Source: a virus
DNA length: 21,206 nt
Virus record (IMG/VR): IMGVR_UViG_3300028879_000012
Coordinates: 1-21,206 of that record
Direction: 5' to 3' (one strand)
The notes under the pieces were generated by a model. The model was not told where the DNA came from. It searched no databases and was given only the letters and a program-made list of their open reading frames with translations. Numbering within the stretch: the stretch's first letter is position 1; each line of letters starts with the position of its first letter. Made by a program: the position numbers and the translations under genes. This document shows positions 18,405-19,811 of this stretch, one piece after another.

Positions 18405-18887
18405 TTATGCGCACTGCAAGGGGTATTTTGCTCTCTTGGGCTTTTTCTTCTCCGAAACCTTTAGTGCGACATACGCATTTAGCTGCTCGGGAGTGATTTT
18501 CTGCCAATCAACACTCTTTCCTGTATGCGTAGCAATGATCGATTTGACCACTCCGTGAAATTCCTGCTTGTCGAAAGCGTTTGTTAGGTCAAACCGGAAC
18601 CACTCGCCCCGCGTCTTCCGGTGTCGAAAGGCCTGATGGATGCGGCGCTCAATGTGGCCGGCCAATTCCTTGCCACCGATCTGCGTGTGTAGAACGGTCT
18701 TCATCTCAAATATCAGGCCCGTCTTCAGGGTTCGTATGCGGTCGTACACCTGTGAACTTATACCAACCTTCACATAAGCAACGCTGTTTCCATCCAGGCA
18801 AAACAGGCAATAGAGCCGCCAATCGTTGAAAGTCATTCGCATACGACCATGCGAATCGTATATGTCCCATCGTTCGCGACGATCCAT
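18405..18887 (-). CDS. GIY-YIG-like protein (T5orf172/MUG113 type)
   Basis: The ATG overlaps the previous stop as TAATG. In this 160-residue protein, residues about 25-100 have the order of elements of the T5orf172/MUG113 branch of the GIY-YIG nuclease superfamily: Leu-Tyr-Cys-Leu-Phe (GIY position), Tyr-Val-Lys-Val-Gly-Ile-Ser (YIG position), Asp-Arg-Ile-Arg-Thr-Leu (the Arg), and His-Ile-Glu-Arg-Arg-Ile-His-Gln-Ala-Phe (the metal-binding Glu) followed by Gly-Glu-Trp-Phe. The C-terminal part is Lys-rich. It may cut or bind DNA; a free-standing homing-type nuclease or a phage DNA-processing enzyme are both possible. It is the last gene before the terminator. Confidence 0.65.
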   Translation of the reverse strand: MDRRERWDIYDSHGRMRMTFNDWRLYCLFCLDGNSVAYVKVGISSQVYDRIRTLKTGLIFEMKTVLHTQIGGKELAGHIERRIHQAFRHRKTRGEWFRFDLTNAFDKQEFHGVVKSIIATHTGKSVDWQKITPEQLNAYVALKVSEKKKPKRAKYPLQCA

Positions 18888-19318
18888 TAAGCGCTCCTCG
18901 CCAGACCAGCCAGCGTCCCCGCTACTCGCTGAAACGCCACGTCGTAGTACGTGAAATATGCCCGCTTACCCATTTTCTTTCCCCAGAGTGTTTCGGCTAG
19001 CTCAAGGCGCTCCACTGATTGACGGCCAAAGCCGCAGTAGTACGCACGGAGAACCGCTGACAGGTGCGGGTGTTCGTGGTGAATGTCATGGACGATCGTC
19101 TCGATCTGCCAATCAAGCTCGGGGACGACCATGGGAGCGAAGCCGGTTGGTCGTTCCGGCATCTCCCCGTGATGCTCGATCAGCACGGCAAGCATGTTCT
19201 TGCTTTTGTAGCCAAGGTCGAAACCGGATCGGTTTATGTTGAACTCGCGACCCCATGAGTCGAGGCGGCGGTCAACGTAGGCATCAAAGGTGTTCGTATT
19301 GGCCTGGGCGCTGGTCAT
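18887..19318 (-). CDS. Putative late-gene regulator (antiterminator Q/RinA-like)
   Basis: I place the start at ATG 19318 (AGGGG ribosome site, ATGA overlap with the previous stop), giving 143 residues. The C-terminal part (about residues 70-140) has Ala-Val-Leu-Arg-Ala-Tyr-Tyr-Cys-Gly-Phe, Arg-Leu-Glu-Leu-Ala-Glu-Thr-Leu-Trp and Tyr-Tyr-Asp-Val-Ala-Phe-Gln-Arg-Val-Ala-Gly. This looks like the sigma-region-4-type helix-turn-helix of phage Q1/RinA regulators. Its place just before the terminator and the late operon is where such regulators are found. The family assignment is by pattern only. Confidence 0.45.
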   Translation of the reverse strand: MTSAQANTNTFDAYVDRRLDSWGREFNINRSGFDLGYKSKNMLAVLIEHHGEMPERPTGFAPMVVPELDWQIETIVHDIHHEHPHLSAVLRAYYCGFGRQSVERLELAETLWGKKMGKRAYFTYYDVAFQRVAGTLAGLARSA

Positions 19319-19506
19319 TTGTTTCCCCTGATTCGTCGTAACTGTTCGGCAAGATGCGGGGTATCTCCCCAAGTCCTACCCCCATCCCTTGGGGTTAATT
19401 TCCTTTTCTGGAGCTGGTGGATCTGACAGGATTTTTCGGGTTCGGACAGCACGTCGGCGCTGAAAACCGAGTGGCGAGGATTGGGGGATCGGCGGGCGCG
19501 GATCAT
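19315..19506 (-). CDS. Small hypothetical protein (start uncertain)
   Basis: With the ATG at 19506, which overlaps the previous stop as ATGA, the product has 63 residues, rich in Arg and Pro. The same frame opens upstream to an ATG at 19578; that longer form (87 residues) would begin with a Cys-Lys-Arg-Cys-Asn-Lys-Tyr-Arg-Arg motif matching the previous gene's C-terminus. The operon habit favours the short form, the motif conservation favours the long. Codon use is less typical than in neighbours, and a GC-rich hairpin lies inside, so the gene itself is not certain. Confidence 0.4.
   Translation of the reverse strand: MIRARRSPNPRHSVFSADVLSEPEKSCQIHQLQKRKLTPRDGGRTWGDTPHLAEQLRRIRGNK
19367..19394 (-). 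promoter_or_regulatory. G/C-rich hairpin upstream of the putative regulator gene
   Basis: CCCCAAG (complement of 19388-19394) and CTTGGGG (complement of 19367-19373) form a perfect 7-base stem with a 14-base G-rich loop. No T run follows. It lies about 50 bases before the regulator start. Confidence 0.35.
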
Positions 19507-19811
19507 GGAAACATTCCGTCGATATTTGTTACAACGCTTGCATTGACCATCCGGCGATACTTGTTGCAGTGCTTGCATCGCGGCCAGTTCCCTTCGTGCA
19601 GTGCTGGCGCCCGTTCTGTGGTGTAGCCGGCCACGTCGCAGAGTGATTCATAGATGTTCATGTCGGATCGGACGTCCATCACTGCGCGGTAATCGGCATC
19701 ACGGTCGACCCAGTAATGCGTTCGCTGACCGCTAAATGGAAACTTCGCCCAGCCGCCCGTGAATCCTTCGATCGGTCCGCCTGAGATGATCGCCACGGCT
19801 TGTTGATTCAT
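19503..19811 (-). CDS. Small protein with C-terminal Cys-x-x-Cys motif
   Basis: A 102-residue protein whose ends overlap both neighbours as ATGA. Residues about 14-50 contain Gly-Gly-Trp-Ala-Lys-Phe-Pro-Phe and Arg-Thr-His-Tyr-Trp-Val-Asp-Arg-Asp. Near the end, Pro-Arg-Cys-Lys-His-Cys-Asn-Lys-Tyr-Arg-Arg could be half of a zinc-binding site. After it the sequence (Val-Asn-Ala-Ser-Val-Val-Thr-Asn-Ile-Asp) is an out-of-frame reading of a second DNA copy of the same motif. Function unknown. Confidence 0.6.
   Translation of the reverse strand: MNQQAVAIISGGPIEGFTGGWAKFPFSGQRTHYWVDRDADYRAVMDVRSDMNIYESLCDVAGYTTERAPALHEGNWPRCKHCNKYRRMVNASVVTNIDGMFP
19517..19580. repeat. Imperfect direct repeat, two 30-base copies
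   Basis: Copy one is 19517-19546 and copy two 19551-19580, start-to-start distance 34 bases, so not in phase. By my alignment 24 of 30 positions match. On the minus strand both can encode Cys-Lys-x-Cys-Asn-Lys-Tyr-Arg-Arg, in different frames. Confidence 0.7.

Follow-up and report, generated by a model that had tools for sequence, protein, structure and literature searches.

An out-of-phase second copy of a putative zinc-knuckle motif behind a small phage gene is probably a relic of local duplication or recombination

Near the 3′ end of a small gene on the minus strand of a phage genome, here called U, the motif CKHCNKYRR is followed almost at once by CKRCNKYRR, which lies in the -1 frame relative to U. 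The locus raises the question of whether the second copy belongs to a working protein, encoded by the downstream open reading frame (ORF D) or by U and D together, or is leftover sequence. The analysed DNA, referred to as the window, comprises a 21206-base virus record and is identical to positions 8493-29698 of the 46.8 kb contig IMGVR_UViG_3300028801_000005. By our reading of the translations, an integrase-like ORF and early genes are present on this contig, which makes a temperate tailed phage the most likely source. The minus-strand order is a NinI-like phosphatase, a RusA-like resolvase, small genes, U, D, a Q-like gene, a T5orf172/MUG113 protein, and packaging and structural genes; it is similar to that of the nin region of lambdoid phages. 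The features of the locus are listed in Table 1.

Table 1. Features of the locus, in window coordinates.
Feature	Position	Strand	Basis or remark
Gene U, 102 aa	19503..19811	-	PHROG 28088; tblastn to Pseudomonas phages; alignments; codon score
Motif copy 1, CKHCNKYRR	19551..19577	-	U frame; aligns with CKNC near the C-terminus in all relatives
Motif copy 2, CKRCNKYRR	19516..19542	-	-1 frame; U reads ASVVTNIDG here; probable relic
ORF D, long form, 87 aa	19315..19578	-	frame holding copy 2; without relatives and without coding signal
ORF D, short form, 63 aa	19315..19506	-	from ATG 19506; ATGA overlaps the U stop; doubtful gene
Q-like gene	18887..19318	-	~49% identity to putative antitermination protein Q of Cylindrospermopsis phages

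The duplication of the motif in two frames, noticed in a sequence-only reading of this DNA, is real, and both ORFs and both motif copies were located on the minus strand. That reading also described two close copies 34 bases apart; their closeness held, and the start-to-start offset was measured as 35 bases, with 8 bases between the motifs. The two peptides are identical at 8 of 9 residues. The copies differ at 5 of 27 bases, at codon positions 2, 3, 3, 3 and 3 (four of the five at the third position), and on the 5′ side their similarity breaks off sharply at ATGCAAG. Exactly two matches to the back-translated motif were found in the window; shuffled windows gave an expectation of 0.00. Except for its own antisense reading, the pair is the sole out-of-frame pair of 9-mers with at least 7 identities within 100 bases on both strands of the window. 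From these results, the repeat is not due to chance. The antisense reading (RRYLLQRLH/RRYLLQCLH) is also alike at 8 of 9 residues, which indicates that the conservation of residues is not peculiar to the sense frame.

In the whole viral collection, the back-translated motif was found in five stretches, one of which is this same phage. Small phage proteins ending in CKRCNKYR(S/R), with no detectable kinship to U, are encoded in L031 (5768-5793) and L035 (2061-2086); each has one weak PHROG hit and none in Pfam. They suggest that a C-terminal CKRCNKYR(S/R) knuckle may arise repeatedly and independently. The motif matches in L033 and L034, whose frames encode no such protein, were rejected as chance.

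U matched the profile of PHROG 28088 with an E value of 3.1e-9 (residues 6-84 of the protein, positions 12-86 of 91 in the profile), AGGAGG lies 5 bases ahead of its start, and its codon score, trained on the window's other genes, was 0.13, with its own frame ranking top. Relatives with 28-43% identity to U were found in Pseudomonas phages and prophages and in one IMG/VR contig (~40% identical). None was found in plasmids, and among 398 genomes from the phylum of the Pseudomonas hit, PHROG 28088 was detected only in the centre genome itself. The L007 candidate was rejected as a relative of U: it is a chance GGWAKFPF match within an unrelated protein. Alignment of U with its relatives gave the invariant columns G20, W21, K23, F26, H32, C58, G74, W76, R78, C79, K80 and C82, and the whole residue set of PHROG 28088 (GW.K..F, H, C, GxWxRCKxC) is present in U. 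H32, C58, C79 and C82 probably form a metal site in this family. The AlphaFold model of U was poor (mean pLDDT 56).

The C-terminus of U is where it departs from its family. Every relative found has a single CxxC (C79-x-x-C82) and ends 7 residues past C82, an end observed in all PHROG 28088 members compared rather than set by a formal criterion. In U, 20 residues follow C82, a terminal length unlike that of the PHROG 28088 members. The seventh of them is the V of ..NKYRRMV; 13 more then follow, NASVVTNIDGMFP, so that the protein ends in ..GNWPRCKHCNKYRRMVNASVVTNIDGMFP. Because the relatives stop 7 residues past C82, the segment NASVVTNIDGMFP, which lies over copy 2, is an addition. U would thus be a small protein of the zinc-knuckle type that naturally ends right after CKHCNKYRR. 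The motif had been taken to be preserved in two frames, but the homologues found, at 28-43% identity, all carry one copy only, with no second motif in any frame, which is the outcome named beforehand as speaking against this view.

The frame of D is open for 110 codons and reads MQALQQVSPDGQCKRCNKYRRNVSMIRARR... from 19578 onwards. In its own frame, the codon score was -0.10 for the short form and -0.15 for the long form, against positive values for all 28 called genes (0.04 to 0.46), and the D frame was not the best of the six over its stretch. No relatives of D were found in phages (tblastn), viral contigs (degenerate scans), PHROGs or Pfam. A start at 19578 would sit 76 bases inside U, preceded only by AAGG, 12 bases upstream. 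Ahead of ATG 19506, only GGA is present as a ribosome-binding site; this ATG and the U stop share ATGA, as is the case between several neighbouring genes, and the D stop likewise overlaps the ATG of the next gene (19318) by ATGA. Since these overlaps at both ends are of the kind seen in neighbouring genes, 19506, which lies past the motif, is the more likely start, should D be a gene at all.

The third-position differences had been taken as a sign that the same residues were selected in both copies. A simulation was run on the 27 bases, under an assumed transition bias and with 5% of residue changes allowed to pass. Given five differences, the probability of at most one residue change was 0.01 with neither copy selected, 0.04 with copy 1 alone selected, and 0.74 with both selected. 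The differences therefore favour a model in which both copies diverged while selection kept the same residues, and this part of the claim is partly supported. Of the 8 matching residues, 5 have the same codon in both copies, which is the most frequent outcome when codons are chosen independently. This points to a divergence that is old or took place in different lineages. Present translation of copy 2 is not required by these data. The selected divergence may predate the present state, when both copies were in frame or evolved in separate lineages before recombination, and so the value of 0.74 is no proof that copy 2 is translated now. Only one further copy of the locus was found; being 100% identical, it offers no polymorphism for a substitution-rate test of present selection.

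We consider it likely that copy 2 is a fossil of local duplication or recombination and not a working motif. This reading is based on the coincidence of the 13 extra residues of U with copy 2, on D being without coding signal or relatives, and on U being without a slippery heptamer; the sharp break of similarity at ATGCAAG is as expected from a junction. We infer that copy 2 is untranslated in its own frame, and also the following order of events. A local rearrangement would have left a diverged second 3′ end of a zinc-knuckle gene right behind U, one base out of phase. In one possible history, this would be an in-frame 36-base tandem duplication via ATG microhomology (cgATGc .. ccATGa), with a unit from ATGCAAGC up to just before ATG(A), which would have kept U in frame. 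One base would later have been lost between the copies, giving the offset of 35, and one base inserted after copy 2 (at CGG-A-ATG or in the TTT run), with the U stop still at ATGA. Alternatively, recombination in the mosaic nin region may have set U before the 3′ remnant of a related gene. The U frame now crosses copy 2 out of phase, which gives the protein a C-terminal tail, and stops at TGA 19505-19503. Duplication and recombination fit the data alike, and copy 2 would be a relic under both. Several points count against the relic: the simulation result is also expected from a translated copy 2, and a D frame open for 110 codons with an ATGA junction to the next gene shows more order than junk needs. 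The 36-base duplication requires two compensating indels, and the recombination history is without a known donor. The relatives of U are at most 43% identical.

Among the alternatives, the earlier proposal was that the downstream protein really begins at 19578. D would then be a gene starting within U, with CKRCNKYRR as a working N-terminal metal-binding motif and both copies selected. The base differences are best fitted by the both-selected model, the D frame stays open across the overlap, an AAGG is available, and CQIH further along could complete a metal site. This start, however, shares the lack of coding signal and of homologues with the rest of D, it lies inside U whereas ATG 19506 yields the usual ATGA overlap, and the relatives of U show no trace of a second motif. 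We regard it as quite unlikely. It is likewise improbable that the motif is used twice, so that U would end with copy 1 and an overlapping D would begin with copy 2, both selected after an out-of-phase duplication. A start at ATG 19506 leaves copy 2 only in the preceding stretch; such a D, coupled to U by ATGA, is compatible with the relic. It is consistent with the ATGA overlaps at both ends, as among its neighbours in the operon, and with a gap of 141 bases at this place in two Cylindrospermopsis phages that carry a relative of the next gene; in one of these phages, Cy-LDV1, the gap holds an unannotated ORF ending in the same ATGA overlap. That ORF is nevertheless unlike D in sequence, and the negative codon score, the absence of relatives and the GGA as sole ribosome-binding site make this gene, too, unlikely.

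A fusion of U and D had also been suggested. Ribosomal frameshifting by -1 would produce, or a sequencing error would conceal, one protein with two tandem CxxC 12 residues apart, and the offset of 35 (36-1) does mean that a -1 shift restores an exact 12-residue repeat. No slippery heptamer X_XXY_YYZ was found in the U frame, though, and the relatives end directly after the single motif. The second contig with this phage, from an assembly that may or may not be independent, shows 0 differences across the 21206 bases and so gives no indication of an assembly error. A fusion is accordingly very improbable.

Further observations concern the neighbourhood. In the phage collection, the only relatives of the Q-like gene were those of the two Cylindrospermopsis phages (49% identity), in which ~141 bases separate RusA from this gene. 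Such a link was unexpected, since U, from the adjoining region, has its relatives in Pseudomonas phages. In Cyanophage Cy-LDV1 (L029 2337-2492), the unannotated ORF between RusA and the Q-like gene has a GTG start, reads ..DCFYCWGERMCEHPELCFPE.., contains four cysteines and overlaps the Q-like gene by ATGA. Between U and the Q-like gene of the window, a hairpin, CCCCATCCCTTGGGG (19378-19395), is followed by TTAATTT on the plus strand; it is terminator-like only for the gene-free strand. Outside the window, the same phage (L040 8614-9417 and 10918-11343; G001 36913-37716 and 39217-39642) has two early ORFs with long low-complexity repeats, AYAYAAAAADAD.. and GYGDGYGDGDGYG.., by appearance short-unit DNA repeats in coding sequence that are possibly variable in length.

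The repeat is thus real, local and mostly ordinary, and the chance that a genuine overlapping gene lies here is small. Were both frames to code for protein, the locus would show clearly how a duplicated piece of a domain can be recruited, out of phase, to form part of a new overlapping gene. Seen as a relic, the locus is a small and clean example of a phage gene end lengthened by wrong-phase reading of leftover sequence, and it warns against taking third-position differences between two copies as sufficient proof that both are translated at present. No literature directly on this feature was found.

The closest known system is PHROG 28088, a small nin-region protein of Pseudomonas phages such as BUCT566, Haboob and vB_Pae_BR313c, whose gene lies between the replication genes and NinG. 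U aligns with it over nearly the whole length, including the invariant H32, C58, C79 and C82, but U is longer by 13 residues at the C-terminus, which are encoded across an out-of-frame second copy of its own C-terminal motif. In mosaic temperate phages, module borders can bear partly duplicated genes and remnants of gene ends. The likeness to such remnants is in a short, diverged leftover of a gene end beside an intact gene; the leftover described here differs in being out of phase and in overlapping and lengthening the frame of the intact gene. Mosaicism is the subject of, for example, PMC3945230. With overprinted phage genes, the locus shares two open frames over the same bases, whereas its second frame, D, has neither a coding signature nor conservation in the distant relatives found.
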